In this document: in pieces, positions 1 through 17,108 of the stretch
Numbering within the stretch: the first letter of the stretch is position 1
How the letters are laid out: each line of letters begins with the position of its first letter
Source: a virus
Direction: 5' to 3' (one strand)
Length of the DNA: 27,905 bases
IMG/VR virus record: IMGVR_UViG_3300044620_001118
Span: 1-27,905 of that record
The notes under the pieces: model-generated
Seen by the model: only the letters and a program-made list of their open reading frames with translations
Database searches by the model: none
Told to the model about the DNA's origin: nothing
Made by a program: the position numbers and the translations under genes

Positions 1-3000
1 AGAGGAAGCCAGTTGCTCAAAAGCTTGAGCTGAGTTTTTCAACTTATCTATATTTTGCTGCGTTGTTGTTCTTAGCTGCTCTATTACTGCTTCATTGCCG
101 CTATCCGAAGCATCAATCTCAAAACCGGATACAAAAGCCAAAGCTTTGTCTACATCTGAATACTCTGGAATAGTCGTTTCGGCTTCCCCTGTTGTACTTG
201 TGTTGACGGAAGACGGCATTTTAGGAGGAATGTACTTTTCAGCCATTGTTTTTCCTAAGCCGGTAAACGAAAGAAGTGCTGCATTCGATGTTAAACCTAC
301 GTACAAAGACTCACGTAACTTTGTACTTTCATCCATAAGCGCATCAGAATACTTTTTGGATTCCTCAAAATACGTACTTCTGTTTTGATTCTCAGGCAGA
401 TTTGCTTGTGTAATAGCCGCATTTATATAAGCTGTGTCGTTTTCTTTAAGAGCTCTTACCACTTCTTGATGAGTTGTGGGCCTTAATTCAGTTTGAGGAA
501 CAGCCTCAACCTTTACTTTTGGTCTCAGTGTGAGCGGATCAAGCTCTTGAACGCCTGTTTCCGGATTTATTACTGGAACGCTCTTTAGTAAAGTTTCTCC
601 AGTTGGGACTTCAATTAACTCACCCTTTTTAGCTAGAAGATCAATTGCTTCGATAGTGCGCTTATCCGCAATCACATTGTAAGTCAATATGGATTCATTG
701 GCAGTCTTTGCAGTCTCTGGACCGTAAAATACTTCACCTGCTGCAATAGCCTGGTCATCTTTTAGTTTGCCCATTGACTGACGCGCTAATGCTTGAGCAG
801 TACGCTCTGTCAAACTGACTGTTTTAGAAGGGTCATCTAAACTCGGAACTCTCATAGCAAGCGCTGTTTGTTGCGTTTCTGTAAGAGTTGAAGCATTTGT
901 TGACAATTGATCCATGTACATCTGCTGAGCGCCGTAGTACGTCTTACTAAACTCTGTAGTCGCTGCAGCAATTTCTTCTTCTAATTGAGCACCGAATCGG
1001 CCAGTAAATCTAATGATTTCTTTTCTGTCAAACGTACCCGCAATTATATCTTCGATGTCTTGGTTATTTACTAAATTTTCAGGATTCTTTGCGCGAGCTG
1101 GAGCGTTCTTTAGCAACTCGTTATTGTATTTTTCTGCTGCCTGCTCAACCATTGTTCTGCGAATTTGCGGTGCGTACAGAGTTTCTAAGTCTTCCCGCTT
1201 CATCTGCACTTCTGTCTCTTTTAATATTTCTTGCCTTTGCTCAACGCTTGTATCCGAGTCAAATGCCGCACGGTTTAAGTTCATTCCTTGATATGCACCG
1301 TATGCGCCGCCAATTAAAGCGCCACCTGCTATACCCCACGGACCGGCAATAGTTCCTATTGCCGCTCCTGCTCCCGCACCTAGCATAATTGAGGGCAACA
1401 ACCCAGCAATATTGCTTCCGTTCAATCCGTACTTTTTAGTAAAGACGGCATCTATGGCTTGCTGTGTTGGCTGCAACGTAGCACCGTAGCCCATTGAGGC
1501 AGCAAATTGATTGACGGCTCCAATACCTTGGTCAGCCGCGCTTTGACCAAGAGCTCGATACCGATCCAAAGCTGCTTTTCCTTCAGCAGTTAAGCTGTCA
1601 TAACCTCCGAAGTCGTTATATTCAACTTTGCCTTCAGCAAGAAGTTTAGCAGCTAAATCGTACTCTTCTCCAGTTTCCTTGTCACGGACAAGGGCCCTAA
1701 CTAGAGGTCTTCCGTATTTCGCGTCTTCTCCGTATCCACCAAAGATTCTAATTTCTTTGTTCGGGTCTGCTTTTATGGCTTCTATTTCTTTCTTTACAGC
1801 AAGACCTTCAGCGGAACCTTTTTCCGGAGCGTCGATTCCTAAAAACCTTCCTCTTACCTCAAGTCCATCTTCAAGATTCATGTTAAAGGTATCGCCGTCC
1901 AAAACTTCTAAATTCTTTACTAGAATTTCTTGGTCGTCTTTATTTATTAACGCTTTATTTGCGTCGTCTAATTGATCTTTTAACATTTCTGGAGTAGTGT
2001 TTAACGACCCTAACTGCACTCTTGAAGTGACAAACTGCTGATAACCTGCGTAATCAGTCTGCTCTGTTATTGTCTGCCTAATTGCGCTTTCTTGAGTTAT
2101 ACCTGTAAGCATTTTTGCCCTAACATCGGCTTTAAACGAGTCTTGTTCTTCCGGCGTCATCTGATTTAATCTTTTGTACAAGGTTGCATTAACATTCTGA
2201 CCGGTGCTTTCCTCAATTAATTTGTTTTCCTTGACCATCGCTTCATTTGCATTTGCAAGCATTGCGTCAAGATCTTGCATAAAAGTTGCAGAGTTGAGGT
2301 CAAGATCCTTTATAACTTTTCTACCGTGTGCAGCTTGAGTAAGTACAGAGTCTCCTCGCTTAGCAACTCTTTCTTTTAGAACTGTGTCGGTTGTATCACG
2401 CCTTGAGGTTTCAGCTATAGTCGAGTCTTCACCAACAAAGTAATTAAGAATTGGTTCTAGGGCGCTTACTGCAATTTTACTAAAGCTTAATTGAGCTGCT
2501 TCGAGCCTGCCCAACATTTTGTCATATTTAGTTGCCATAGAAGCCGCTTGATCTTCAATCAAACGGTCAGTCAAGCCCATTCCGCTAAGAAGAGCATCAA
2601 GGCTGTCAAGCATTTCTATAGCGTCGCCTTGTTTAATGTTTGAAAGCGCCGATCTGCTAATTTCAAATCTTCTCGACAAAGAAGACATGTTACCCGAAAG
2701 AAATTCTCTAATTGCTATTTGCGCGCCTTCGGTGCCCTGAGCAGGGTCGAATGCAGCTAGTTTACGGGCGACGTTAAACGTTTTGTTAATGTCGACGCCG
2801 TAAGAATTCGCCAAAGGAATGAATCCGGTAACTTGTCCAATATTCTTAGTCAACGTACCGCCAAACAGCTTTTGCTGAGTAAGCGCAGCCTGCATGGCGT
2901 TTCCGTAAGTTTCGGGACTAAGCGCTAAAGTTCTGGCACTGATCATTGTACTTTCAGCATTTAATGCAGGTCTCACTGCTTGATCGATTGCTTGCATTAT

Positions 3001-6000
3001 CGCGGTCGGTGCGTTAAACGCGGCTGTTGCCCAGTAATTAATCTGTTGTGCTTTTTGCGTAAAATGCGAAAATCTACTAGCCAAGGTTGATTGATTTCTT
3101 GCAGATTTTTCCTCATTAAGTGTTTTCTGCATTGCAGTCAAATCTGCAGTAGTGATGTCTACCCCAGGTCCCCTATCTGCTTCTCTAGTAACGCGATTAA
3201 GGATTCTTTGTCTTCTATTGACATCAGTTATTCCTTTCTTATCTAAAGCAGCGTTAGTAGCGTCTATTCTTCTTTGATATTCAGAATCGCCTCCTGACAA
3301 CTTCTTTTGTGTGTATGCTAGGTCTGCAGCAGAAGCAGTTCGTAAGTCTCTTCGTACTTCTTTTCCAAGGAAATTGACACCGTATGCTTGTAGGTTTCCA
3401 GCAAGAGAGCTATAAAGAAGTCCTTCTTTTCCTCCGGTAATTTCGTTTGCGTAGCCTTTCAACAATCTTCTTCTTGTTATGTCTTGTCCGAATGTATAAC
3501 CAAACAAGGACTGTTGAGTAGTGTTTGCTTGTAATCCTTCACGGAGTGCCGAAAGCCGACGATTAGTTTCCTTCTCTACATCTTTTGCGGCTCGGTCTTG
3601 TTCTTCGCCTGCAAAACCTGCAAGAACACCGACTTTTGCAGCTGCTGCTCTGACTTTTGCTGCGCGTTCGATTTCTTCTGAAGTTTTAGTTGTGTCATTT
3701 TGAGTAGCTTCGGCTGCCTTGTCCAATGCTACCAAAGCGTTTTGCAATCGACTTAAATCTGTAGCTAAGTCAGCAATATTTTTTCCCGGCGCGTCAAGGC
3801 TACTGAAAATAGCTTGAATGTCGTCGGCTTCTTGCCCGTATCCTCCCTTGTTTGCAGTTTGCAGTAACTCTTTAAAACTATCGTTGTTGTCAATAATTGA
3901 TTTAGTCGTTGTTTGAGCAATACCGGTAAGTTCTCTTTTACTTACTCCGACACCCGCACCACCAAGAGAACCCATATTTTGTTCGTATGCATTTCTTGCT
4001 GCTCTTAATTGCTGCACTGCCAGCAAACGGTCGGCGCCGAAATTACGGGCACCACCTTCACCGAACTCGCCGCCAACTCCAAATGGAAGGCCGCCGCCTC
4101 CACCACCACCGAAACCACCACCTGCACCAGGAATAGCCAAGCCTGGGAACATGCCGAAGAAGCCTGCTCCGGCGCCAGCTGCTGGCGTAGTCGCTGCAGT
4201 TCCTGTTGTTGCAGAACCTGTTTTATAAATTGGACCGAATGGTCCTATTCCTACTAATGTTCGTCCAGCGACTATCGAAGCCGGAGTAGTTGAAGGAGCA
4301 GACGCAGCAGCAACCACTGCCGCATGAAGTGCCGTTCCTGAAACACCTGAGGCACCTGAAGCAGGAGCTGCGTGAGCTCCTGTAGCAGAACCGCTTCCAG
4401 AAACTGCTAAACCAGCGGCAATAATGTTTACAGGGGATCCTGTCGCTGTTACCGTGTTTGCAGTAATGTTTACTGGAGAACCTGTTGCTGTTACAGTAGT
4501 TCCTGAGCCTTCTCTTCTTCTGCCTGTCTTTCTTCCACCTCTTCGTCGTCCGCCTTCTTCGCCACCGTCTTCATCATCAGAAGGTGGAGAACCTCCACCG
4601 CCACCGCCTCCGCCTGAACCGCCAGAGCCTGATCCAGACCCCTTTGATCCCTTTCCGGAATCAACGGCGTAAATGTCTTCTCCTTTTTCAAACCGAGCAA
4701 GCAATTTTGATTTTTCAGCTCTTTGCGCGTCGGACAAAATTTCTTCTGGGTAGGTAAGGAGTTCTTCAATTTCGTCACGTCGTTGTGCTTTTTGCCATTC
4801 TGGATTATACGGTCGTTTATTTTTTAACAAACGGTCTCGTATTTTTTGAGCCCTTGCTTGCCGAGATGCTGTTTCTTCAGCTGTCATAGGACCCATATCA
4901 GAAAAAAGTTTTTTCTGTATGGCTGTTTCTACAATATCAGTCGCCATTCGCATTCCTGCACCTGGATCTGACTCAGGTGAGTAGTTGCGAAGTTCTGCTA
5001 AATTAATGTAGTCTTTCGGTTGTCTGTCTAATCTGTAACCTTTTGGAGTTTGTACAGTTCGAGGAATGTCTCGTTGCCGTGGTACGTTGACTCTTGCAAG
5101 CAACATAGCACGTTCTTCTGGATCTGTAATACTCTTGCTGTCCATCCAGTCTGTAACTGACTTAACGGCTTTAGCATACTCTGGATTTTCTTCTTTTGAA
5201 AGCAGACTGTAAGCCCTTTTTCGCATTGCATCGCTTACAGGTCTGCCAGTTCGAGCAGCTCTTTCGTCAAGACGACGGTCAATCTCTTTTCTTCTAGCTA
5301 CAAGCGCTGGGTTTTCCATCACTGCGCGGGAAGTATCAAAGAACATTGCTTCAGGGTGAGCTTTATAGTATTGTCTTCTTTCTCTATCGGCAACTCTTGC
5401 TTCTGTTTCAGGTTGTCTTCTTTTGCTTTCTATTGACTTTTCTTTTCTTCTGCTTTCTCTACTTGCCGCTAGTTGCGCGTCGTAGTCTTCTATTCTTTTT
5501 TGTTCAGCAGCACTTACTGGTTTTTGACGTCTTCCCATTATTTTAGCGGGAACTGTAATCTTGCTTACAAGTTTTTGTAAATAAGCATCATACGTAGCAT
5601 CGTCAACTCGTCCGGCAATCTTCGCTAATCTTTCTTTTGCTTTTTCGACTTCTGCAAGATATGCAGGATTGTCTATTTCCACCGTTGCCAAAGCTTCGCC
5701 TTTTTCTTTTGCTTTTCTTTCTCTCTCTGCCACAGCTAAATCAGTCTCAGGTCTTCGTTTTTTACTTTCAACCGACTGACGTTGTTTTCTAGGAACACGA
5801 GCGGCAGCGTATTTTTCAACATGCTTATCAATTATCTGGCGTTCTCTTTCGCTAATTGCTTCGGTGGCTGGAACAGTAAGCTTAGCAGGAACAGCAATCC
5901 GGTCAAGAAGATTTTGTAAATAAGCTTCTTTTCGTTCTGGACTAATTCGACCAGCAATTTTTTCTACTCTTTCTTTTGCTTCTGCAACTGCCGCCAGATA

Positions 6001-9000
6001 TTCAGGATTGTCGGTCTCAACCATCTTTACAGGTTTAGCCGCTTTTGCTGCTTTTTGTTTAGCTTCTCTTGCTGCAATTTTAGCATCAGTTATAAAAGAC
6101 CTGTCTGCGAGTCTTTCAGCGGATTCATTTCTTTTTCTTGCAATTCTTGGAGTGTCGCGGACTAAAACATTTTTACCAGTTCCCACATCTGGGAACATTC
6201 TCCATGTACTTGTTCCGGATCCCTCATCAACGCCTCCAGTGAGCAAATCTTTAAAGAATTTAGAAGTACTTTCTTTGAATTTTGAAAATCCTGAAATAGG
6301 AGGGGCACTTTGCTTAGGAACAGTAATCTTGCCTATAAGCTTCTGTAAAAACGCATCTTTCTGACTCTCAGTTAATCCAGTAGCTCTGTTTACTTTTTCT
6401 CTAGCAGCCTCGACTGCTGCAAGATATGCGGGATTGTCAATTTCCGGTGTCTGTCTTTCATACGTCGGGACTTGATAACTTGCGCCTTGTTTGCTTCTTG
6501 TACGCTCGCTGAAGTTTAATATTCTTACTGGTTTAAGTTGAGCTTCGTATTCTCTTTCTCGGCGCTCTGCCTCTTCGCGTCGTCTAATTACTTCGCGTAT
6601 TGATTGAATTTGCGATTCAGCTTCTCCTTCTCTTATATCACGTCTTTCTTCTGCTACTTTAGTTCGACGTGCGACAGCCGGTTCGCTCATGTATTGTTTT
6701 TCTTCTCTTGCAGCGACTTTTGCTGCTGTTTCCGGTTGTCTTGCTTTGCTTGCTATCGATTTTGCTTTTCTTCTATTAATTCGATCTTCATCTATTCTTT
6801 TTTGATACAAGCGTTCTGCATTTTCTTCCTGTATCGGTCTAAGAGCGGAGTCAAGGCTGTCTTCCCGCATTGATCCTCTTATAGCAGCAATTTTAGCGTC
6901 AGCCTCACCTTCTCTTTCTGCTCTTACCTCTTCACCTCTTTTTTCCCTAATACTCATTTCTTTTTGATAAAGTTCTGCTAAAGCTTTTCGGTCATCTTCA
7001 ATTTTTTTATTTTCAATTTCTTTTGCGTTTTTAGCAATCTGTTGTCTACGCAATTCTCTTTCTTCTGCAATAGTTGCGGGCTGCTCTTTTGTCGCGTCTG
7101 CGACTAACGGCATTCGACCGACGTCGACTCCTTCATTAGTTAACCTTCTGAAACGTGCTGACATTCGTTGTCGAAACGTTTGAAACGCCGATTGCGGTCT
7201 GTCCTGTCCTACATAACTAAGCGGTCGCCGTATAGACATGCCACCCGAAAGGTATTCTTCAAATTCTGTTCGAGTAGCTTCTCTTACTTGTACAGGATCA
7301 ACTTCAATAGTCGGGCCGGTTAAATTAAACTGCCGTCGAGGACGATCTCCTCTTCCTCCGCTATATCTCTTATGTACGTAATTATACCGCCCAAGTATTG
7401 ATTGTTTGCGATCTGCCAGTCTTTGTCTTTCTGTTTCGTCTGCTTCTGCTTTAGCTACTCTTTCGGCTTCAAGTTGAGAATGAGTTTTAGTGTATTCTTC
7501 TTCAGGCTTATTTGGATCGGGAGCAGGAAGTAAAAATCTTCCAGTTACTCTGTCCTCATATTCGCGAAATTCTCTAGCTTTTCTTTCTGCCTCTTCTTTT
7601 TCTGCTTGTAATTTAGCTTCTTTTTCTGCCTGTAGTCTGGGTTGTTCTGCTTTTCTTTCTCTTTCTATTCTTAGTGCTTGTAGTCTGGCTTTTCTAGCTG
7701 CCCGCGGTTCTGCTTCTCTTGCAGCAACTTTTGCTGCTGTTTCCGGTTGTCTTGCTTTACTTGCTATCGATTTTGCTTTTCTTCTGTTAATTCGATCTTC
7801 ATCTATTTTTTTCTGTCTTTGGTCTTCTAATTGAATACCTTCAGGAGTTGAAGGTGGTACGACGGCCCCTGCATCGTAATTAGTGTATACAGCTTGAATT
7901 TGCTTTCTTCTAATATTTCTACGTCTAGTAGCTAACCCTCTTTGTGCTGCCTCGCTTCTTCGTTTAGCTTCCGCTTCTCTTCTTCGAACTGTTTCCGCTG
8001 ATTGTCGAGCTGGTTCTTCAGCTGCAAGTTGTTCTGCTGTTTTAGTGTACTCTTCTTCAGGCTTGTTTGGATCGGGAGCAGGAAGTAAAAATCTTCCGCT
8101 TGCTTCCATAAAAAGCCTATTTTGGACTTTTTCAACAATTGGGAGAGTAGCGGCATCGGCTTCGGTTTCCCTTGCAGCTGCTCTTTCTTCCGTTTCTTTT
8201 ATTCTTTTCCTACCCCTGACTATTATTTGATCAAGAGTAGCAAATTCCGATCTTTTAACATCTTTTTCAGCAAATGCTAATTTTTCGGCTGGATCGGTAA
8301 TTCCTTCTTTTTCCGCGTTCCATACCGCTATTTGTTTTGCAATTGCGTATCTTCTTTGCTGACGAGCTTGAAAAAGTCGTTTCGCGGTTTCGCTTCTTTC
8401 TTCAGTGCCTCTTTTAGCTTTTGGATCTGACCGAGGAATCGAAGCCACTTCTGGATCAATACCTGCTCCTCCAAAGAGCGAGCCGTACTTATTTACATAT
8501 TCAGGTCTTGTAGGATCACCGTATTGCGCTGTCATTGCTGTGTCAATTCCGCGCGGGGGATTCTCTCTTTGCATCCAGGCATCGATTAACCTTGCCGGTA
8601 TTGGGTACTTTGCATCCACATTCCGGTCCGCGTAGTATTCACGGAGCTCATTCATTATTTTTTGATTATTGGCCTCGTCTCCAGGTATTGGTGCAAAAGC
8701 ATCTTTTTCTCGCTTTGTGAAAAATAAAGGATTGCCTTTTTCGTCTCTTCCAAAATCCTCTTGCTCATAAGTTCTGGTGTTTCTAGTGAGTCTGTCAAGT
8801 ATTTTTTTTCTTTGTCTTTTGCTTCTTTTTTTAGGTTTTGAGTCTAAAGCGGCGTTTATTTCTTTTCTTCTCTGTCTGCGATTTTTGTCTACAGCATTCT
8901 GTCCATTTTCTTGATCCGCTAATCGCTCGGCCTCTCTTTTTTTATCGACTTCAAGCAGCTGTCTTTCTCTTTCTCGCTCTCTCATTATTTCTAAATCTTT

Positions 9001-12000
9001 AACTTCTGATTGCACTTTAGGCTCGTCAAATTCTTGAAATTCTTTTATAAAGCCAGGAATTCCTCTTGCTACGCTTGGATTGATGCCGTAGCTAACTTCT
9101 GGAACAGGCATGTTTTCTGCTTCTCTTGCTTCTTGTTTTGCGTCTTTTTCTCTTTGCTTAGCTTCCAGATATTCAGGAGAATTTCTGTATAACGCGTTAA
9201 TTTGTCTTTTTGTTCTTTTTACTGGTTTTGTTGCTTCCCACCAAGCTAAAGGCCTGACTCTTCTAGTTAACCTTTTAAAAATCGTATCTCGTCTTCTTTG
9301 GTTTGCTTCGCTATTAGATCCAAAATAACGACGGCGTTTTCCTTCGGTAGCTTCTTTAAACTCTTTTCTATCTAAAGCCGCGTTGACTTCAGCAATCCTG
9401 TCTGCATTTTCTTTGTCTCTTGCAGCAATAGCCGCGTTTCTATCTTCTTCTCCCAGCCTTTCTAGAAAAAGTTCTTTTGGATCTTCCTGGCTTTTATCTT
9501 TTGCTTCTGCTACAGCTGTATCTCTTTTCAATAATTGTGCGTTTTCAGTGGCACTTCCAACATAAAACTCAACGTTTTTATATGGCGTATTTTTAGTCAG
9601 CTTTGTAATTTCTTCTTTCGGTTCTACGTCGACAGCCCTTGGATGGCGCATGTGCCTAAGGTACAGTCCTTGCGCTACTGCCCGCATTTGCCGAACTAGA
9701 TCTCTACCTGCGTTTGTTGTTGTCAAGCTTTGAACATGTTCAGGATTTTTTGTATCCATTTTTCTAAATTGCTCTGTTTGCTCTGGCGCTAAAACCGAAA
9801 ATATAGCTTGCATGTCTGATAAAAATTTAGTGTCTCCTAGAGAAGGATCTCTGCTTGACTGTCTTCCAAAGTCTTTTAGCTTTTGAAGGATTCGCAATTT
9901 TCCAATTACTGGTCCAAGGCGACGAGCTAGTGGCACATCTTCCTCTTTTGCTTGCTGCCTTGCCTCAACAACAGCCTCATTAGGCCTGTCTCTCGTAGCC
10001 ACGTTAAACATTTCGGCAATTGCAGGGTTTTCTAAGTATTTATGACCTTTTGTATCAGCCATGAAAGTAGAAATTTGCTCAGCCATCGCTTTGTTTTTTG
10101 GATCTTTAGCGGCTGCCTTTACATAACTTTCTACTGATGCCGTGTCACCAAAGTCTGTGTACCTTAGCATGTTTGCCATGCCTGGAGTCACGCCGCCAAT
10201 AAGTTTTAAAGCTTTTTCCCTAGCTTTAGGATCTCCTATAGCAGTTGCTAGTAATTGCTTTAATCCTTTGTTGTCTCCTTGAAATTTTTGAAACTTAGCA
10301 ATTAAGTCGTCTAGCGGGCTTCTATCGGCCCGTTCGCGGGGTTTGTCTGACGTAGTAACCATTGCCGCGGCCGGATCGTAGTTTACTGCGTTGTCCTGCC
10401 TGTTTCCGGATTGTAGATGCCTCAAAGGATCTAGTCCAGCAGCTATTTCTGCTTGATATTGAGACCTGCGAATAAGTTCCGCGGTTGTAAGACTTTTTTC
10501 AGGCGCTCGCAAAATACGGTCTATTTCTTCTCTTTGTTCCTCAAGGTTAACATGCTCACCTGCTGAATAAGTTCCCGAACGGTACGTAAATTCTCCTGAT
10601 CGTTCTTCTAAAGTAAAATCTCTGTCTGCTTGCTGTTGTTCAGCTAGCTTGTCACTGATCCTTAAATCTTCACGAATGCCTGCATCGACAATCCCTTCTC
10701 TTTTGTGCCTTTGTACAACAGAGTCGTTGTACGCTGGCGATGGCATACGACCTAGCACAGCTCTTGCTAAACTACTTATACGGAATCTCAGTGTCTTGGC
10801 CATTGATATAGGGCTGACTGTAGAAGCTTGTTTGCGTGAGTTTTCTAAGTCATTAGTTGTCCCCATTACCCGCGCAATTCTATCGGCCATTCCTCCAGAA
10901 GTGTGCAATATTGGTAAATTCTGTCTCAATGCATCAGGAGCACTGACAAGAGTGTCTACTGACGGAACGTCTTCTCCTCCTTCTGCTAAGGCAGGTACGA
11001 GAACCGGTCTTAAAAGTTTCGAAAGCATTGAAAACTGTCCAAACGAATCCGTGCTTTTAAATTCTTTAGATCTTGATAATGTTCTAACTCTTGCTAACAT
11101 CCGCTTGCTTAATTCAGAAAGCATTGGCGACGCAGCTTCCATTTCTAGAGCCAAGGCTCTATTTGGATTTTTAGGGTCGTAGGCATTAGCGTAATCCAAA
11201 ATAGGGAAACCAGAATACTCGGCTTGCTCAAGTAGCTGTATACTAGAAAAGAAATTTTTTAATTGACTTAACGGGCTTGGCAGTTCTCGTGCTTTTCTTG
11301 GATCTACTTTTCCATCTTTATCTGTAATATTGCGTGCTGTTTGCAAGCCTTGAGTAAAATTTTGATACTTGGAACTGCCGCCAATTAAACCAAATCCTGC
11401 CAATATACTGTCAGTAAATTTATATTTATTTTGTTTAATTTCCTCGTCTACTTTTAGTTGACTTTCCAGACCGTCATCTAAAGGTAACCCTTCTCGATTA
11501 TTTTGAGCGATTACTTGCAAAGGTGTAGGAGAATCAAAAAGCACAGGCATATCAGCTCTTCCAAGACGTCTTAGATAGTTTAATGCCCTGTTCGCCACAG
11601 GTCGAACATTTGTCACCATATCGCGAAACGAATCACGTCCAAATCCGTAACCAGCAACGCGCGTAATCATTTCTTCAGGATCGTTTTCTATCCCAGTGAT
11701 ACTTGCTTTCGGATTTGCAATCATATCTGCAGGTACGGGTCTTGTAGGTTGGATAACTACTGAAGAAGGCCCTGCTGGCGTATCTTCTTCTTTGTAAGGC
11801 TCAAACGAGATTTGCCTTGCTCTTGGATTGGTTACTTGTTTTCTTATTGAATCTGGTAAGTCTTTAAAGCTCCATCCTTCTTTAGCCTCCCACGCTGCAA
11901 TTCCTTCAGGTGTGCTAAAATCCGGCTTTTCCACTGATGTTACTCGATACCGTGTTCCAGGCGCTTCCGGAATTTCGATTACTTGTCCAGGTTTGTATCC

Positions 12001-14439
12001 CCCACCCGCTCGAGTTGTGGCTGTTCTAACTCCTTGTTCAACAAGCTGAGCTGTAGTAGTCCCTGTTAAATATCTAGCTTTTAAATCTTCTCTTAACTGA
12101 CTCTGCGCCATACTGTACTTCATTGCCATTGTTGCGTCTGTTGGTCTAGATCTACCTAAATTAGGATTTAACGCCAGAGCTTGCTTCTGTATATAATTTT
12201 CTATATCTTGCGGCGTGTTGCGAACATCCTTATCATTTTCATCTCTTTGGAGATACCCATCCGGCATGTGCACATCCGCGTTTAATCCTAAAGCAGCCGC
12301 AGCAACAGATCCGGCAATGTCTGTTCCAGTTTGCCCACCTGACACAATTGTACTTAACTGTGGATACTGAGCTTTGACTATTTTTAAAATATCATAAACG
12401 TTTCGATTAACTTGATCTTGAGAAACTCCCGCTTTTTTCCAAGCCGGCATAGCATTTCCTGAAACATTAAGAGAAGTGGCGCTTGTCGCTTTTAGAGATT
12501 CTACTAACCTAGCTGCTATTTGTTCGTTACTTTGTCCCTCGTCACTTACTAAAACTCCGCCAGCCGCTTTTACAGCCGACGCTGTTTTTCTTTCTCCAGG
12601 GGTTGCATGGTCAGCTGCGTAAGACAGTGTTACTGGAGCGGCCGCAGCGTTTCTCTCTGTCCTGCGCGGATACGATCCCCCAGTGCTTACACTTACCAAT
12701 CCTCTAGTTGTTGATGGACCTACTGGAACTACAATGGGCTTTTCGTCAAGTGTTGCATATGTTCTTTGTTCAGCTCGAGCAGCAGCTAAAGCTTTGCCAG
12801 CTTCTTTTCTGGATTCTGGAGTTCCTGCTACAGCGTACTCTTCTTCAGCTCTTTTTACTCTTTTTTCTAGCTCGTCTTTAACTCTTTGATGAAGAATGCC
12901 TGCTAACGATGTCTCACTTTCTTTTTGATTAACTCCATCAGAAGTAAACAAATTTTTAAATATTTCTTTTACATTCAATCCCCGCAGCATTCTAATTTGA
13001 TCTTGTGTAGATTTACCGCTACTTGCTTGTAGCTTTTCGGCTAAAAACGCAGCAAAAATACCTGAGAATGCATTTTGAGCTGTTGGTCCACCAAACACGC
13101 CCAATGATTTACCTTCTCTACCGATGGCTCCTCTTGCCGTTGTATCTGTAGAAGCTCCTTGTACTAGGGGACCAAACCTTGACAAAGCGGCCATTATAGA
13201 TCTTGGAATCTTTGATGAAAGATTTGTTTCGGCTGCTGCAGGGTTTGTGGTCGGACTTACAACTCTACCTGACCTCAAATCTTGAATTGCGTTCTGTAGA
13301 ATTGAGTCCATTGCCCGAGTAATGTCGTAATCAACCCCTTCTTGGAAAAGTTGATTAGTTGCTGCCGACTCCATGTAACCTCGTGATATGTCTTGCCCTA
13401 CACGTAAGTCTTCGTTAGTTCCTTTCCCTACTCGAATTCCAAGTCTGGTTTTAACAGAGTCTTTAAATTTTCCCCACGTATTGTGCAAAGACCTTCTTCT
13501 CGCTCTGCCAGAAGCCTGTTGTTCAGCACCTGCTGTAAGAGAGTCTCCGAATCCTTCACCGTCGTCTCCAGAACCAGGCCTTTCAACATAGTTTACTTTG
13601 CCTCCATAACCCATTTCATTTTCAAAACCAACGTCAGATAACTGACTTCTCTGAACAACCGGACGAGCAACTGCTTTTCTAACCATCTGTTTGACAGTTC
13701 CTAGAACCTGCCTAAACGACTGTATATTGCCCATTCTCTTAGTTGCTTGTTGGCCCGCTGCCATGAAACCGTCACCAATATCCGCTACAACAGTAGTCAA
13801 AGCTTCTTCAAACGCATCGACTACCGCACCCACCGGGCTTCCTGGTTTTATACTCTGAAGTAGACCGGCGCCTCGGTTACTTCCGGCAGCAGTTTGTTTT
13901 TGCGCAATTGAGCGGATTAACGCCCTCATCTGAGATATTTCTGGCTTAGAAAGTGCGTTAACATCTGAAGTTTCTGTAAGAACGTTCGATCTTTTTGGAG
14001 AAGGCCCTTCTCCTTTGTAAAGCCCAAAAGTATTAGGAGTTGTTATACCGTATTGTCCCGGCAAATCAGGTTCTTTTGCAGTTGACGATCTTGATCCTCT
14101 AGGAGCAGCTCCAGAAGGTTTTGCGGCAGTCGTGACAGCGTTTGCTTGCTTCGCTGCATTTGCTTCTTGCTGCAATAGAGCAATGCGTTCTTCAATTATT
14201 TGATTGAGTCTTTTGTTTGAAGCTATCGCTTCTTCGACGTCCTCAACACGAATTTGGGCCTGTCGTTCTGATTTTCGACCTATAACTTCTCCGGTTTTGG
14301 AGTCTTTTATTGTAGGCTCTAAATCTTTAGTGTTAATTCCAACACTGTCTAAAAGTTTTTTAGCTTCTGGGACTGTCTGAATAATATCATTCAGCATAGT
14401 CAACAAGCTTTCTAACTTAGAAATATAGCTGTCTGACAT
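1..14439 (-). CDS. Giant tail tape measure protein, multidomain, partial (3' end outside window)
   Basis: One minus-strand frame stays open from an ATG at 14439, preceded by an AGGTG Shine-Dalgarno, to the left edge: at least 4,813 residues without a stop. It follows directly after the tail chaperone genes, the classic tape measure position. Residues about 3777-4000 resemble the tape-measure core (alternating helices, 'SGNMSSLSRRFEI', then a long helix ending 'ALEPILNYF'). Other parts in order: helical N-terminus (1-600), SLOG-like domain (603-745), helical region (750-1590), Arg/Glu/Lys-rich coiled coil (about 1594-3250), glycine-rich linkers (3254-3454), nuclease domain (4174-4295), glycine zipper (4340-4380). 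Tape measures set tail length and pass through the tail into the host during infection. At about 0.15 nm per helical residue this one would imply a tail near or above 700 nm, less if the globular parts do not span length (inference). A fused or polyvalent protein that is only partly ruler is the alternative. Confidence 0.86.
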   Translation of the reverse strand, partial: MSDSYISKLESLLTMLNDIIQTVPEAKKLLDSVGINTKDLEPTIKDSKTGEVIGRKSERQAQIRVEDVEEAIASNKRLNQIIEERIALLQQEANAAKQANAVTTAAKPSGAAPRGSRSSTAKEPDLPGQYGITTPNTFGLYKGEGPSPKRSNVLTETSDVNALSKPEISQMRALIRSIAQKQTAAGSNRGAGLLQSIKPGSPVGAVVDAFEEALTTVVADIGDGFMAAGQQATKRMGNIQSFRQVLGTVKQMVRKAVARPVVQRSQLSDVGFENEMGYGGKVNYVERPGSGDDGEGFGDSLTAGAEQQASGRARRRSLHNTWGKFKDSVKTRLGIRVGKGTNEDLRVGQDISRGYMESAATNQLFQEGVDYDITRAMDSILQNAIQDLRSGRVVSPTTNPAAAETNLSSKIPRSIMAALSRFGPLVQGASTDTTARGAIGREGKSLGVFGGPTAQNAFSGIFAAFLAEKLQASSGKSTQDQIRMLRGLNVKEIFKNLFTSDGVNQKESETSLAGILHQRVKDELEKRVKRAEEEYAVAGTPESRKEAGKALAAARAEQRTYATLDEKPIVVPVGPSTTRGLVSVSTGGSYPRRTERNAAAAPVTLSYAADHATPGERKTASAVKAAGGVLVSDEGQSNEQIAARLVESLKATSATSLNVSGNAMPAWKKAGVSQDQVNRNVYDILKIVKAQYPQLSTIVSGGQTGTDIAGSVAAAALGLNADVHMPDGYLQRDENDKDVRNTPQDIENYIQKQALALNPNLGRSRPTDATMAMKYSMAQSQLREDLKARYLTGTTTAQLVEQGVRTATTRAGGGYKPGQVIEIPEAPGTRYRVTSVEKPDFSTPEGIAAWEAKEGWSFKDLPDSIRKQVTNPRARQISFEPYKEEDTPAGPSSVVIQPTRPVPADMIANPKASITGIENDPEEMITRVAGYGFGRDSFRDMVTNVRPVANRALNYLRRLGRADMPVLFDSPTPLQVIAQNNREGLPLDDGLESQLKVDEEIKQNKYKFTDSILAGFGLIGGSSKYQNFTQGLQTARNITDKDGKVDPRKARELPSPLSQLKNFFSSIQLLEQAEYSGFPILDYANAYDPKNPNRALALEMEAASPMLSELSKRMLARVRTLSRSKEFKSTDSFGQFSMLSKLLRPVLVPALAEGGEDVPSVDTLVSAPDALRQNLPILHTSGGMADRIARVMGTTNDLENSRKQASTVSPISMAKTLRFRISSLARAVLGRMPSPAYNDSVVQRHKREGIVDAGIREDLRISDKLAEQQQADRDFTLEERSGEFTYRSGTYSAGEHVNLEEQREEIDRILRAPEKSLTTAELIRRSQYQAEIAAGLDPLRHLQSGNRQDNAVNYDPAAAMVTTSDKPRERADRSPLDDLIAKFQKFQGDNKGLKQLLATAIGDPKAREKALKLIGGVTPGMANMLRYTDFGDTASVESYVKAAAKDPKNKAMAEQISTFMADTKGHKYLENPAIAEMFNVATRDRPNEAVVEARQQAKEEDVPLARRLGPVIGKLRILQKLKDFGRQSSRDPSLGDTKFLSDMQAIFSVLAPEQTEQFRKMDTKNPEHVQSLTTTNAGRDLVRQMRAVAQGLYLRHMRHPRAVDVEPKEEITKLTKNTPYKNVEFYVGSATENAQLLKRDTAVAEAKDKSQEDPKELFLERLGEEDRNAAIAARDKENADRIAEVNAALDRKEFKEATEGKRRRYFGSNSEANQRRRDTIFKRLTRRVRPLAWWEATKPVKRTKRQINALYRNSPEYLEAKQREKDAKQEAREAENMPVPEVSYGINPSVARGIPGFIKEFQEFDEPKVQSEVKDLEIMRERERERQLLEVDKKREAERLADQENGQNAVDKNRRQRRKEINAALDSKPKKRSKRQRKKILDRLTRNTRTYEQEDFGRDEKGNPLFFTKREKDAFAPIPGDEANNQKIMNELREYYADRNVDAKYPIPARLIDAWMQRENPPRGIDTAMTAQYGDPTRPEYVNKYGSLFGGAGIDPEVASIPRSDPKAKRGTEERSETAKRLFQARQQRRYAIAKQIAVWNAEKEGITDPAEKLAFAEKDVKRSEFATLDQIIVRGRKRIKETEERAAARETEADAATLPIVEKVQNRLFMEASGRFLLPAPDPNKPEEEYTKTAEQLAAEEPARQSAETVRRREAEAKRRSEAAQRGLATRRRNIRRKQIQAVYTNYDAGAVVPPSTPEGIQLEDQRQKKIDEDRINRRKAKSIASKARQPETAAKVAAREAEPRAARKARLQALRIERERKAEQPRLQAEKEAKLQAEKEEAERKAREFREYEDRVTGRFLLPAPDPNKPEEEYTKTHSQLEAERVAKAEADETERQRLADRKQSILGRYNYVHKRYSGGRGDRPRRQFNLTGPTIEVDPVQVREATRTEFEEYLSGGMSIRRPLSYVGQDRPQSAFQTFRQRMSARFRRLTNEGVDVGRMPLVADATKEQPATIAEERELRRQQIAKNAKEIENKKIEDDRKALAELYQKEMSIREKRGEEVRAEREGEADAKIAAIRGSMREDSLDSALRPIQEENAERLYQKRIDEDRINRRKAKSIASKARQPETAAKVAAREEKQYMSEPAVARRTKVAEERRDIREGEAESQIQSIREVIRRREEAERREREYEAQLKPVRILNFSERTRSKQGASYQVPTYERQTPEIDNPAYLAAVEAAREKVNRATGLTESQKDAFLQKLIGKITVPKQSAPPISGFSKFKESTSKFFKDLLTGGVDEGSGTSTWRMFPDVGTGKNVLVRDTPRIARKRNESAERLADRSFITDAKIAAREAKQKAAKAAKPVKMVETDNPEYLAAVAEAKERVEKIAGRISPERKEAYLQNLLDRIAVPAKLTVPATEAISERERQIIDKHVEKYAAARVPRKQRQSVESKKRRPETDLAVAERERKAKEKGEALATVEIDNPAYLAEVEKAKERLAKIAGRVDDATYDAYLQKLVSKITVPAKIMGRRQKPVSAAEQKRIEDYDAQLAASRESRRKEKSIESKRRQPETEARVADRERRQYYKAHPEAMFFDTSRAVMENPALVARRKEIDRRLDERAARTGRPVSDAMRKRAYSLLSKEENPEYAKAVKSVTDWMDSKSITDPEERAMLLARVNVPRQRDIPRTVQTPKGYRLDRQPKDYINLAELRNYSPESDPGAGMRMATDIVETAIQKKLFSDMGPMTAEETASRQARAQKIRDRLLKNKRPYNPEWQKAQRRDEIEELLTYPEEILSDAQRAEKSKLLARFEKGEDIYAVDSGKGSKGSGSGSGGSGGGGGGGGSPPSDDEDGGEEGGRRRGGRKTGRRREGSGTTVTATGSPVNITANTVTATGSPVNIIAAGLAVSGSGSATGAHAAPASGASGVSGTALHAAVVAAASAPSTTPASIVAGRTLVGIGPFGPIYKTGSATTGTAATTPAAGAGAGFFGMFPGLAIPGAGGGFGGGGGGGLPFGVGGEFGEGGARNFGADRLLAVQQLRAARNAYEQNMGSLGGAGVGVSKRELTGIAQTTTKSIIDNNDSFKELLQTANKGGYGQEADDIQAIFSSLDAPGKNIADLATDLSRLQNALVALDKAAEATQNDTTKTSEEIERAAKVRAAAAKVGVLAGFAGEEQDRAAKDVEKETNRRLSALREGLQANTTQQSLFGYTFGQDITRRRLLKGYANEITGGKEGLLYSSLAGNLQAYGVNFLGKEVRRDLRTASAADLAYTQKKLSGGDSEYQRRIDATNAALDKKGITDVNRRQRILNRVTREADRGPGVDITTADLTAMQKTLNEEKSARNQSTLASRFSHFTQKAQQINYWATAAFNAPTAIMQAIDQAVRPALNAESTMISARTLALSPETYGNAMQAALTQQKLFGGTLTKNIGQVTGFIPLANSYGVDINKTFNVARKLAAFDPAQGTEGAQIAIREFLSGNMSSLSRRFEISRSALSNIKQGDAIEMLDSLDALLSGMGLTDRLIEDQAASMATKYDKMLGRLEAAQLSFSKIAVSALEPILNYFVGEDSTIAETSRRDTTDTVLKERVAKRGDSVLTQAAHGRKVIKDLDLNSATFMQDLDAMLANANEAMVKENKLIEESTGQNVNATLYKRLNQMTPEEQDSFKADVRAKMLTGITQESAIRQTITEQTDYAGYQQFVTSRVQLGSLNTTPEMLKDQLDDANKALINKDDQEILVKNLEVLDGDTFNMNLEDGLEVRGRFLGIDAPEKGSAEGLAVKKEIEAIKADPNKEIRIFGGYGEDAKYGRPLVRALVRDKETGEEYDLAAKLLAEGKVEYNDFGGYDSLTAEGKAALDRYRALGQSAADQGIGAVNQFAASMGYGATLQPTQQAIDAVFTKKYGLNGSNIAGLLPSIMLGAGAGAAIGTIAGPWGIAGGALIGGAYGAYQGMNLNRAAFDSDTSVEQRQEILKETEVQMKREDLETLYAPQIRRTMVEQAAEKYNNELLKNAPARAKNPENLVNNQDIEDIIAGTFDRKEIIRFTGRFGAQLEEEIAAATTEFSKTYYGAQQMYMDQLSTNASTLTETQQTALAMRVPSLDDPSKTVSLTERTAQALARQSMGKLKDDQAIAAGEVFYGPETAKTANESILTYNVIADKRTIEAIDLLAKKGELIEVPTGETLLKSVPVINPETGVQELDPLTLRPKVKVEAVPQTELRPTTHQEVVRALKENDTAYINAAITQANLPENQNRSTYFEESKKYSDALMDESTKLRESLYVGLTSNAALLSFTGLGKTMAEKYIPPKMPSSVNTSTTGEAETTIPEYSDVDKALAFVSGFEIDASDSGNEAVIEQLRTTTQQNIDKLKNSAQAFEQLASS
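1300..1425 (-). other. Glycine-zipper hydrophobic segment of the tape measure
   Basis: Residues about 4340-4380 read as a Gly/Ala-rich hydrophobic stretch with 'GAGAGAAIGTIAGPWG' and 'GGALIGGAYGAY'. Such segments in tape measure C-terminal parts are thought to insert into the host membrane during DNA entry. Here it lies just after the nuclease domain. Confidence 0.6.
1555..1920 (-). other. Staphylococcal nuclease-like (thermonuclease) domain in the tape measure
   Basis: Residues about 4174-4295 contain the SNase signature in order: 'VLDGDTF' (about 1885-1905), 'RGRFLGIDAPE' (1822-1854), 'KYGRPLVRALV' (about 1687-1719) and the C-terminal 'LAAKLLAEGKVEY'. Residues equivalent to Asp21, Arg35, Asp40, Glu43 and Arg87 of staphylococcal nuclease are all present, so it looks catalytically intact. 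The family cuts DNA and RNA with calcium. The domain is in frame and follows the tape-measure core, so it would be carried inside the tail (inference). Confidence 0.8.
2440..3110 (-). other. Canonical tape-measure core
   Basis: Residues about 3777-4000 show the pattern typical of siphophage tape measures. 'ALNAESTMISARTLALSP' is followed by helices with 'GVDINKTFNVARKLAAFDPAQG', then 'REFLSGNMSSLSRRFEIS', then 'MATKYDKMLGRLEAAQLSF' and 'ALEPILNYFV'. This is the part that most directly supports the tape measure call. Confidence 0.7.
4021..4680 (-). other. Glycine-rich and low-complexity linkers in the tape measure
   Basis: From 4680 downward the protein has a Gly/Ser run, a polyglycine stretch, an acidic 'SPPSDDEDGG' patch, a basic patch 'GGRRRGGRKTGRRR', then Ala/Ser/Thr-rich sequence and a second polyglycine run near 4085-4130. 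This probably acts as a flexible joint separating the long charged N-terminal part from the canonical tape-measure core. Confidence 0.75.
4417..4494 (-). repeat. Short tandem repeat encoding 'TATGSPVNI' twice
   Basis: Two units of about 36 bases (4417-4452 and 4459-4494), period 42, encode 'VTATGSPVNITA' and 'VTATGSPVNIIA'. They sit in the Gly/Ala/Ser/Thr-rich linker between the charged region and the tape-measure core. Confidence 0.7.
5545..6445 (-). repeat. Three diverged protein repeats of about 44 residues in the tape measure
   Basis: Three copies share the pattern D-N-P-x-Y-L-A-x-V, then x-A-(K/R)-E-(R/K), a G(R/L) turn, A-(Y/F)-L-Q-(K/N)-L and finally (K/R)-I-(T/A)-V-P. They lie at about 5545-5690, 5885-6020 and 6310-6445. 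Intervening sequence differs in length. They look like older duplications of a helical hairpin ruler unit. Confidence 0.7.
6702..6803 (-). repeat. Direct repeat A, copy 1 (about 100 bp)
   Basis: This stretch matches 7713-7814 at a constant offset of 1,011 bases with only about five mismatches by eye. Both copies encode 'INRRKAKSIASKARQPE' followed by an 'AAKVAARE' type helix. An offset divisible by three keeps the frame, so it is an in-frame duplication inside the tape measure gene. Confidence 0.85.
7485..7542 (-). repeat. Direct repeat B, copy 1 (58 bp)
   Basis: Matches 8041-8098 with two mismatches over 58 bases. Both copies encode 'GRFLLPAPDPNKPEEEYTK'. The sequence before and after diverges at once, so the unit is sharply bounded. 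Confidence 0.88.
7713..7814 (-). repeat. Direct repeat A, copy 2 (about 100 bp)
   Basis: Partner of 6702-6803. The near identity at DNA level, including synonymous positions, indicates a recent duplication or gene conversion, unlike the diverged protein-level repeats nearby. Confidence 0.85.
8041..8098 (-). repeat. Direct repeat B, copy 2 (58 bp)
   Basis: Partner of 7485-7542, at an offset of 556 bases. Since 556 is not a multiple of three, yet both copies encode the same peptide in the same frame, the phase must be restored by the copy boundaries: copy 1 reads from 7542 and copy 2 from 8098. The frame identity was checked by translating both copies; the exact offset would be worth recomputing. 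Confidence 0.75.
12205..12633 (-). other. SLOG-like (YpsA/molybdenum-carrier-like) nucleotide-binding domain inside the tape measure
   Basis: Residues about 603-745 read as a Rossmann-like unit. A strand ending 'LNVSGNA' (657-663) is followed by a helix, a strand, and the glycine-rich turn 'SGGQTGTD' (12319-12342), then 'VAAAALGLNADVHMPDG'. The GGQTG-D signature is typical of SLOG-superfamily proteins, which bind nucleotide-derived ligands. The domain is in frame with the tape measure on both sides. SLOG domains occur in phage polyvalent proteins and in defence systems, so a role in handling host nucleotide signals on DNA entry is possible but only inferred. Confidence 0.65.
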
Positions 14440-14448
14440 GTATTACAC

Positions 14449-14706
14449 CTACATAAACATTTCAAAGATTGCAGCTTCTTTTTTAAGATCTGCATCTTCT
14501 TGTTCTTTTATTTTCTTTAATTTTCTACGAATACTAGCATCAACAGCGTGTTGTTTCGCGCTGACTAAAGCGTTCATTTCTAAATGCGTTAAACGCCCTA
14601 TCTTTTGGGCGTTTAACGCGGTCATCTGATGGTCAACTAGAAAATGATCAATCCACATTCCTAGTTCTTGACGACTGTTATTGCAAGTCTTAATCAGATG
14701 ATGAAT
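14449..14706 (-). CDS. Frameshift extension of the tail assembly chaperone (gpT-like part)
   Basis: This frame, offset +1 from the upstream chaperone gene, is open well upstream of the chaperone stop and ends with TAG at 14449, ten bases before the tape measure ATG. It has no convincing start codon with a ribosome binding site near the overlap. Its sequence after the overlap is protein-like (helical, with 'QEDADLKKEAAIFEMFM' at the end). Joined after the GGG codon at 14708-14710, residues 1-135 of the upstream frame plus 85 residues from here give a 220-residue fusion, matching the G/GT organisation of many siphophages. The ORF upstream of 14706 in this frame is out-of-frame reading of the first gene and was not counted. 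Confidence 0.72.
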   Translation of the reverse strand: MHHLIKTCNNSRQELGMWIDHFLVDHQMTALNAQKIGRLTHLEMNALVSAKQHAVDASIRRKLKKIKEQEDADLKKEAAIFEMFM

Positions 14707-15112
14707 CCCCTCCAGACGGCTCAGGCTCACGTAAGGCGTTGTCCTTGTTGAGTGCCTCGATGTATTTATCGAAAGCATCCTTCGATACTTTTCCAAGCGT
14801 CCAAATGTTTTCTGCAAGCTCACGGACAACCTCCCCATTCGCGTCAAGTAATTTTTTCGCCTGAGCCGAGTTCAATTTTGGGCGAATTAATCCTTCAACA
14901 ATTGTGTTTATTGTAAACTCAATTGTATCAGTTTCCCCTGATTTTTGCGAAAGCGTGTTGATCTTCTCCATCTGAGCATAGCTCAGAGCACGAATTCTCA
15001 ACCGTTTCTTCAAACCCTTGATTGTGAGGTCTACTTCAAGAAGCGAATCATCAGTGAGTAAGTCATCGACATTCTCGTAATATTCCCCAGAACCAAATGC
15101 GTAATCTAGCAT
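14690..15112 (-). CDS. Tail assembly chaperone (short, gpG-like product)
   Basis: 140 residues, ATG at 15112 with an AAAGGAGA Shine-Dalgarno. It sits between the tail tube genes and the tape measure gene, the invariant place of siphophage tail assembly chaperones. The product has a beta-rich N-terminus ('SLLEVDLTIKGLKKRLRIRALSY') and a helical remainder ending in a Ser/Gly/Asp tail. These proteins bind the tape measure while the tube polymerises and are not in the virion. A fraction of ribosomes should shift near 14707-14710 into the next frame to give a longer product. Family assignment rests on position, size and the two-frame arrangement rather than on a clear sequence motif. Confidence 0.75.
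   Translation of the reverse strand: MLDYAFGSGEYYENVDDLLTDDSLLEVDLTIKGLKKRLRIRALSYAQMEKINTLSQKSGETDTIEFTINTIVEGLIRPKLNSAQAKKLLDANGEVVRELAENIWTLGKVSKDAFDKYIEALNKDNALREPEPSGGDSSSD
14704..14713 (-). other. Candidate +1 ribosomal frameshift site (GGA GGG GAT)
   Basis: On the minus strand the zero frame reads TCT GGA GGG GAT. The downstream chaperone frame reads GAG GGG ATT. A tRNA on GGG can re-pair perfectly one base 3' because of the GGGG run at 14707-14710, giving +1. A -2 shift would need GGG-tRNA to pair with GAG, which is less favourable. No stop codon directly follows the site; the zero frame ends 18 bases after GGG. Confidence 0.55.
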
Positions 15113-15209: not shown

Positions 15210-15647
15210 TTAGTCGGTGTAGTCGCTGCCAGTTGAGGTGTCGACTGTGAAGCCACCATTGTCCATGAAGTCGAACGATACAGTCACCTGATCGTTTGCG
15301 GCGTTCGTGAGCTGGTAACCAGTCAAGATAGCTGAAGGAATGACCATGGTGTAGCCGCCCTTCGAAACAAGCTTAACGCCGATGTATTCACCGGAGTTTG
15401 AGATGTTGATCAAACGAGTGTGAGTCGTCTGCTGGTCGATCGGAAGCGTTACTTGGAACGAACCGTTAACACGCTTCGTGGTGGTGAACGTGTACATCTT
15501 ACCGTTGTCGTTCAAGAAAGGACCGGCGTCGACCTGTTGGGTCTGCAAAGAAGCCTGCCACTGTGAAACAAACTTAACGTTGTCGTAGGCAGTGCCTGCG
15601 GCATTCTTAATCTTTAAATAACCCTCAATACCTTTAACAATTGCCAT
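15210..15647 (-). CDS. Tail tube (major tail) protein, paralogue 1
   Basis: 145 residues, ATG at 15647 with AGGAGA upstream. It is beta-rich ('GSFQVTLPI', 'TVSFDFMDNGGFTVD'), in the place of the major tail protein directly before the terminator and the chaperones. Roughly half its residues match the adjacent gene at 15661-16077, including the block 'QWQASLQTQQVDAGPFLNDN' and 'SGYQLTNAAND'-like motifs. By eye it uses more C- and G-ending codons than its paralogue, as do the capsid genes, suggesting it is the highly made copy. Tube proteins stack as rings that form the tail lumen. The call rests on position, size and paralogy. Confidence 0.75.
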   Translation of the reverse strand: MAIVKGIEGYLKIKNAAGTAYDNVKFVSQWQASLQTQQVDAGPFLNDNGKMYTFTTTKRVNGSFQVTLPIDQQTTHTRLINISNSGEYIGVKLVSKGGYTMVIPSAILTGYQLTNAANDQVTVSFDFMDNGGFTVDTSTGSDYTD

Positions 15648-15660
15648 TGAAGTAGTTCTC

Positions 15661-16077
15661 CTAATTTAGATTTGGTATTACTATAAATCCGGCGTAGTCG
15701 TAGAAGTCAAACGAGATTGTGACTCGGTCGTTTGCCGCATTTGTCAACTGATAACCGGACAGAAGAGCAGAGGGGATGATCATCTGATATCCGCCTTTGC
15801 TTTTTAACTTGAGCTCGAAATATATCCCGCTGTTCGACAAGTTTATTAACTTGGTATGGACATTGGAACTTGAAGATTCTTGCGTAATCTGAAATGATCC
15901 CTGAACTCGTCGGCTAGTAGTAAAAGAATACATTTTGCCGTTGTCGTTTAAAAAGGGACCAGCGTCCACTTGTTGCGTTTGCAGCGACGCTTGCCACTGC
16001 TCAGCAAAGGGAACTTCTTCTTCGCCTGAATCGTGTTTTATAATAATCTGGCCTTCTACGCCTTTAACAATACTCAT
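15661..16077 (-). CDS. Tail tube protein, paralogue 2
   Basis: 138 residues, ATG at 16077 with a GAGGTG site, located 13 bases upstream of paralogue 1 in the operon. It keeps the same fold signature: 'MSIVKGVEGQIIIK' at the start, a shared central block, and 'VTISFDFYDYAGF' at the end. The two proteins share an identical run of over 20 residues around 'QTQQVDAGPFLNDNGKMY', yet the codons there differ at many synonymous positions, so the duplication is old and the protein is constrained. It may be a minor tube ring component, a tube initiator or an alternating subunit; the sequence does not decide. Confidence 0.72.
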   Translation of the reverse strand: MSIVKGVEGQIIIKHDSGEEEVPFAEQWQASLQTQQVDAGPFLNDNGKMYSFTTSRRVQGSFQITQESSSSNVHTKLINLSNSGIYFELKLKSKGGYQMIIPSALLSGYQLTNAANDRVTISFDFYDYAGFIVIPNLN

Positions 16078-16523: not shown

Positions 16524-17108
16524 CTATTTCAAAATGCTACCAATTTGCTGATTGACGACTTTTTTAACACTCGCCTCAAGCTCTGCATCGGTAAGCTGTT
16601 GAAATTTTTTTTGAACCTGCTGAACAAGTTCTTTCATCATTCCCTTTACTTCAGAAAGCGTTGCTTTTTTTGTTGAATTATCGACCGCTTGTTCAATAAT
16701 AACTTTTAAACTAGGTCCGTCAATTTTGCCAGACTTTATGATTAAACTGATTTCATTCGACATTTTATATAACTGCAGAATTGAATCGTCAATAAGCGCC
16801 GCTTTTAGCGGGTTCTGCACTGTGTCCTGATCAACCAGTTCTTCTCCAGTATCTTGCTTGACTTGCTGATTTATATTTTTAAACGTGTTCAAGCGGTCAT
16901 TAAATTTTTTGTTTTCTGATCTTTCTGATTGTTTATTGCGGCGATCAGTCATTCTGATTTCTTCTTCAGGACTGACGTCGTTAAGGGAGAACAAATACTC
17001 TTCCACATTTTTTAAAACTGTGTGTTCTACAATTTTGCCTAAATGCTTAGGAATGGAATTGTACTCTTCTTTGTATCTTTGAATCTTCTTTATAAGCTCT
17101 TGAATCAT
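16524..17108 (-). CDS. Neck/tail-completion protein candidate (HK97 gp10-like position)
   Basis: 194 residues, starting at 17108 with a four-base ATGA overlap with the upstream gene, which indicates translational coupling. It is almost entirely predicted helix, rich in K, E and Q ('MIQELIKKIQRYKEEYNS', 'KGMMKELVQQVQKKFQQL'). Position between the stopper and the tail terminator matches the HK97 gp10-like neck family, but the sequence is more helical than typical members, so the assignment is by position only. Confidence 0.45.
   Translation of the reverse strand: MIQELIKKIQRYKEEYNSIPKHLGKIVEHTVLKNVEEYLFSLNDVSPEEEIRMTDRRNKQSERSENKKFNDRLNTFKNINQQVKQDTGEELVDQDTVQNPLKAALIDDSILQLYKMSNEISLIIKSGKIDGPSLKVIIEQAVDNSTKKATLSEVKGMMKELVQQVQKKFQQLTDAELEASVKKVVNQQIGSILK

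Follow-up and report, generated by a model that had tools for sequence, protein, structure and literature searches.

The tape measure gene and its neighbourhood

The DNA analysed here (the window) is a phage fragment of 27,905 bases from IMG/VR, and a near-identical contig of 68,078 bases (G001) contains its cut-off longest gene in full. The longest gene in the window lies after the tail tube and tail chaperone genes (Table 1) and encodes a giant protein, for which the near-identical contig gives a full length of 5350 aa. We assign this protein as the tape measure protein (TMP) because of its gene position, its size and its similarity to annotated TMPs, namely those of D6E (1e-10) and of Abouo and Davies (5e-5), with matches that span approximately 90 to 140 aa. 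Profile matches and gene order also place a probable tail terminator and a head-tail adaptor upstream. One stretch of the TMP, which we call the core, is common to the relatives described below and is partly shared even with compact TMPs that have no nuclease domain; searched against PHROGs, it gave no useful match.

Minor observations concern the surroundings. The two tail tube paralogues adjoin each other (15210-15647 and 15661-16077, minus strand) and are 64% identical. At 26218-27903 on the plus strand, the window holds a large terminase gene with a probable intein, present as a whole gene at L006:8567-11191; the intein splicing profile, at an E of 1.7e-5 that falls short of the Pfam cut-off, covers aa 125-424, and the terminase nuclease domain comes after it. 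A tblastn search with the terminase against isolate phages returned no match, and two scans for relatives in bacterial or archaeal genomes gave none.

Table 1. Features of the window discussed in the text, with positions counted from its first base.
Feature	Position	Strand	Basis
Giant tape measure protein (TMP; P0001)	1..14439	-	Single open frame, 4813 aa; the end of the contig cuts off the rest
Gly/Ala-rich hydrophobic segment with GxxxG repeats, P0001 aa 4343-4386	1282..1413	-	Hydropathy and GxxxG counts
Predicted SNase domain, P0001 aa 4170-4314	1498..1932	-	Profile, fold and family evidence
KYGR motif (R87 equivalent; R at 1710-1708)	1708..1719	-	aa 4241-4244; R invariant
R-x4-DAPE motif (R35, D40, E43 equivalents)	1822..1848	-	aa 4198-4206; R, D, A, E invariant
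DGDT motif (D19, D21, T22 equivalents)	1888..1899	-	aa 4181-4184; D-x-D-T invariant in 14 relatives
Conserved TMP core directly before the SNase domain	2020..4017	-	blastp of relatives
SLOG/cpYpsA-like domain in the N-terminal TMP part, P0001 aa 588-754	12178..12678	-	phrog_10774, 1.1e-28
Tail assembly chaperone-like gene, XkdN-like	14690..15112	-	phrog_389, 3.9e-4
Two tail tube (major tail) proteins, paralogues	15210..16077	-	phrog_10528, 1.2e-3
Neck protein, 194 aa, without SNase in the window	16524..17108	-	Homology search and split alignment

A staphylococcal nuclease domain in the tape measure protein

A first-pass annotation of this DNA had described DGDT, R-x4-DAPE and YGR motifs, in that order and with all five classical catalytic positions, as a staphylococcal nuclease (SNase) domain at 1555-1920. 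The minus-strand TMP frame does contain these motifs in that order, and the window copy has residues equivalent to D21, R35, D40, E43 and R87 of SNase. The domain also lies where it had been placed, with boundaries that are a little wider (approximately 1932..1498). A strict version of the motif string occurs once in the TMP and in none of 2000 shuffled sequences; a loose version appeared in 29 of the 2000, so that the motifs by themselves are suggestive rather than decisive.

No member of the SNase set is more divergent than the window copy. Pfam hmmscan did not find PF00565 in it even at E <= 10, and tblastn against isolate phages gave only weak matches (E approximately 0.8 and above), several of them to proteins with an endonuclease annotation; the SNase of one relative (L018) gave no match at all in such a search. 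An alignment of 14 TMP SNase domains (A3) gave clearer results: PF00565 was matched by 13 of its 14 members (best 4.6e-13). Lack of a match to the SNase profile, which had been named in advance as grounds for rejecting the assignment, is thus what we found for the window copy itself, but not for its relatives. The profile built from A3 locates the domain at P0001 aa 4172-4315 and matches thermonuclease structures in the PDB at 4.3e-16.

Structure prediction, which had been proposed as a check against the SNase OB-fold, points the same way. AlphaFold models of the domain reached a pLDDT of 77.2 with 5 sequences and 84.6 with 14, and for both models SNases were the only structures among the matches listed by Foldseek against the PDB (for the 14-sequence model, E from 8.7e-8 and TM approximately 0.6 to 0.7). 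In fold and catalytic residues the TMP domain thus resembles staphylococcal nuclease/thermonuclease (PF00565). It differs in context, since staphylococcal nuclease is a secreted, stand-alone enzyme whereas the TMP domain is internal to a virion-type protein, and the two are approximately 18% identical by structural alignment. Judged by profile, predicted OB-fold and family, the TMP domain is an SNase, with an active site that is predicted to be intact.

Conservation and selection

Scans with the TMP core recovered 15 contigs including G001, in about ten lineages. All 15 have an SNase at the same place in the TMP, so that the fusion for which a search in related phages had been suggested is present in every contig that shares the core. 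The SNases of the relatives are 22% to 37% identical to the window copy. Across the 14 domains of A3, 13 columns are invariant, including the equivalents of D19, D21, T22, R35, D40, E43 and R87; loss of the key acids in close relatives, the second ground named for rejection, was not seen in any of the 14.

Between the window and G001, the SNase differs by a single replacement as against three silent changes, which gives a pN/pS of 0.097 (from small numbers), compared to a pN/pS of 0.40 for the whole TMP part. In two pairs of relatives the SNase dN/dS is 0.09 (L010/L011) and 0.26 (L017/L021). These substitution patterns indicate that the TMP SNase is under purifying selection. Invariant catalytic residues at 22% to 37% identity, together with low pN/pS and dN/dS, argue for a predicted working enzyme. 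A chance motif match is ruled out by the profile, the fold, the conservation and the selection taken together.

An SNase fold might still be kept in the TMP as a non-catalytic OB fold with a structural or DNA-binding role, given that TMPs tolerate insertions. We regard an inert fold of this kind as very improbable because the active site is invariant: the five catalytic positions, R35 and R87 included, do not change while the remainder of the domain diverges, and dN/dS is low.

Position of the domain and a candidate membrane segment

In relatives whose C-terminus is present, 1018 to 1150 residues separate the SNase from the end of the open frame (1108 in G001). This distance is constant even though the TMPs range from 3991 to 6477 aa in length. 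In the siphophage TP901-1, the tail tip holds the C-terminus of the TMP (PMC5099701). If the same orientation applies here, an SNase at a fixed distance from the tip-end terminus would fit early delivery.

A Gly/Ala-rich segment with GxxxG repeats follows approximately 25 to 65 residues after the SNase, at the same place in all relatives examined, and is the strongest or only segment of this type in the TMP of nearly every relative. Its composition makes it a candidate membrane-inserting hairpin. TMPs are thought to enter the cell envelope and to make a channel for the DNA (PMC9022992, PMC10770324).

A putative route through the tail

We consider it evenly balanced whether the SNase-type nuclease is cargo of the TMP that is ejected with it and cuts nucleic acid at the entry port, although this is the best supported of the readings considered. 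The sequence itself shows SNase homology and fold, intact catalytic residues, purifying selection, a steady distance from the C-terminus and a neighbouring hydrophobic segment. The giant TMP would carry the SNase near its tip-proximal end, beside the glycine-rich possible membrane segment. Upon adsorption, the TMP would be expelled before the genome and would insert into the envelope, so that the SNase would come to lie at the entry port, either at the cytoplasmic membrane or across it. There the enzyme could cut nucleic acid before or during entry of the phage DNA, with host DNA or RNA as the likeliest substrate. We infer the virion location of the SNase, its ejection and membrane insertion, its activity and substrate, and the sparing of phage DNA.

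Two known systems count for such delivery by analogy. The precedent for enzyme delivery by a TMP is gp96 of the Thermus phage P23-45, which is 5002 aa long, carries a virion RNA polymerase at its N-terminus and has transmembrane domains (PMC10770324). It is like the window protein in being a giant siphophage TMP that carries a nucleic-acid enzyme, thought to be delivered at entry, but its polymerase is N-terminal whereas the SNase of the window phage sits approximately 1100 aa before the C-terminus. Neither the window TMP nor ten relatives matched DxDGD, the motif with which that polymerase binds metal, and on this ground we reject a polymerase of the P23-45 type in the window TMP. The second system is the Agrobacterium type VI secretion (T6SS) effector Tde1, a DNase whose adjoining glycine zipper is required for passage of the inner membrane and is a motif shared with some TMPs (PMC10240207). 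Here, too, a nuclease lies next to a glycine-zipper membrane segment in a delivery machine that resembles a phage tail; however, Tde1 belongs to the Ntox15 nuclease family, has its zipper at the N-terminus and is an antibacterial weapon with an immunity protein. Other observations count against tail delivery. The window domain diverges furthest of all and has no Pfam match, and deletion of the second hydrophobic region of the TP901-1 TMP hardly changed infectivity, a membrane role not having been demonstrated there (PMC5099701). A third observation, the neck SNase of one lineage described below, is not obviously ejected.

The calcium requirement of known SNases also counts against tail delivery and bears on where the enzyme could act. 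SNases characterised so far are mostly secreted and Ca2+-dependent, and, to our knowledge, the known ones require Ca2+ at concentrations absent from the cytoplasm, so that action outside the cytoplasm is a serious alternative. The SNase might then degrade extracellular DNA, or competing DNA in the envelope, where Ca2+ is available, and would be inert inside the cell; the incoming phage DNA would therefore survive. The order of the domains is compatible with this, since the SNase precedes the candidate membrane segment and could remain on the outer side. Removal of extracellular DNA does not need a site in the TMP, however, because sites in tail fibres or the hub are more exposed, and we consider an extracytoplasmic nuclease unlikely, if the least unlikely of the alternatives.

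The entry port is also where the injected SNase could destroy host defence nucleic acids or DNA complexes at the entry site. Such counter-defence is improbable in our view: SNases are sugar-non-specific phosphodiesterases, and no defence target is known. What speaks for it is location, as some defences, SNIPE among them, act exactly at TMP-mediated entry (PMC13190303), where the SNase would be well placed.

Other domains carried by these tape measure proteins

Further nucleic-acid or nucleotide enzymes predicted in TMPs of the same family count for tail delivery. A DnaQ-like DEDDh exonuclease lies upstream of the SNase in the TMPs of L008, L009, L010-L012, L018, L019 and L020, from aa 2202 in the L008 TMP, with all motifs kept where the domain is complete; PF00929 matched at 1e-6 in L020, and the profile matched exodeoxyribonucleases in the PDB at 9e-7. 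This exonuclease was not found in the window TMP. A fragment of the L010 TMP (aa 567-621) has a NUDIX domain above the Pfam cut-off. The domains observed together are the SNase with a DnaQ-like exonuclease or NUDIX in the family, and the SNase with the SLOG-like domain in the window. The premise that TMPs commonly carry peptidoglycan-degrading domains and not nucleases needs qualifying, given the RNA polymerase of P23-45 and the DnaQ-like exonuclease of the relatives.

The SLOG/cpYpsA-like domain, a nucleotide-sensing type of domain within a tape measure, matched PF12694 at 4e-6 to 9e-6, about the curated cut-off, and had no match in the PDB by phmmer. An ASCH-like domain suspected by eye after it found no support in Pfam or PDB searches.

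A broader proposal is that the TMPs of this phage group may be multi-enzyme vehicles, in which a tip-proximal SNase and a variable DnaQ-like exonuclease, NUDIX or SLOG domain would be threaded into the cell ahead of the genome and, once at the entry port, would degrade or remodel the nucleic acids and nucleotide signals of the host. We hold this more tentatively than delivery of the SNase itself, at somewhat short of an even balance.

Relatives without the tape measure SNase and copies in a neck protein

Two more distant relatives (L082 and L084), whose tail tube protein is 60% to 62% identical, have compact TMPs of approximately 1582 and 1651 aa that share part of the core, and no SNase was found in their contigs. 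In L043/L044/L046, L072 and L085, by contrast, the neck protein is interrupted in its middle by an SNase of approximately 110 aa that keeps its catalytic residues (L044:1212-2075 and L085:8677-9537); the window homologue at 16524-17108 on the minus strand has no such insertion. We dropped the idea that the SNase had moved from the TMP to the neck: over 1846 aa, the TMP start on the L044 contig (L074) shares 99.6% identity with the L015 TMP, in which an SNase is present. The L044 lineage therefore probably has both TMP and neck copies. In a tree of the SNases the neck copies fall among the TMP copies. Since this tree is weakly resolved at its forks and puts the window sequence on a very long branch, we claim no history for the domain.

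A nuclease at the neck would sit where the DNA end lies, and this speaks for a self-directed role, in which the SNase would act on the phage genome itself, trimming it or setting it free as particles assemble or eject, in the manner of head-completion nucleases. T4 gp4 is a virion nuclease on which packaging depends (PMC7824862). The TMP copy, however, is near the tip end and remote from the packaged DNA end, the compact relatives manage without any SNase, and a non-specific nuclease is hazardous to the phage's own genome. A self-directed nuclease therefore seems to us a poor prospect, on a level with counter-defence.

Novelty and related proteins

The SNase family and the idea of an enzyme-bearing TMP are already known; within the literature searched, what is new is their combination and the conserved position. 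No SNase or thermonuclease in a TMP was found in that literature, which included few subscription papers, and the nearest case was the baseplate hub protein of BtI1. TMPs have so far mostly been viewed as rulers and DNA channels with added cell-wall enzymes. Our data suggest that in an uncultured family of long-tailed phages a nuclease is delivered by the tail itself, at the very start of infection. If the ruler does deliver a conserved nuclease, host takeover or counter-defence may precede any phage gene expression, and the lumen of the siphophage tail would be an enzyme delivery route comparable to contractile injection systems. The long-standing question of which part of the TMP ends on which side of the membrane now becomes testable, since the activity of a nuclease domain can report on the defined position that it occupies.

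Phages and conjugative elements also encode polyvalent proteins, which are likewise giant and multidomain and for which injection together with the DNA has been proposed, but the study describing them names neither tape measures nor SNase (PMC5512222). The BtI1 baseplate hub protein, a gp27 homologue, has an N-terminal SNase-like domain (PMC2147016), and a hub-like protein of Acinetobacter phage ME3 gave a weak SNase match (tblastn E 4e-3). Both are precedents that resemble the window phage in having an SNase fused to a protein of a phage tail, and differ in that theirs is in a baseplate hub or hub-like protein and not in the TMP. The ME3 protein (L120:1782-8771; record 37999-44988) is 2329 aa long, with the SNase-like stretch near its middle. 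The long family phrog_8809 matches the neck SNase at a position similar to that of the ME3 stretch.
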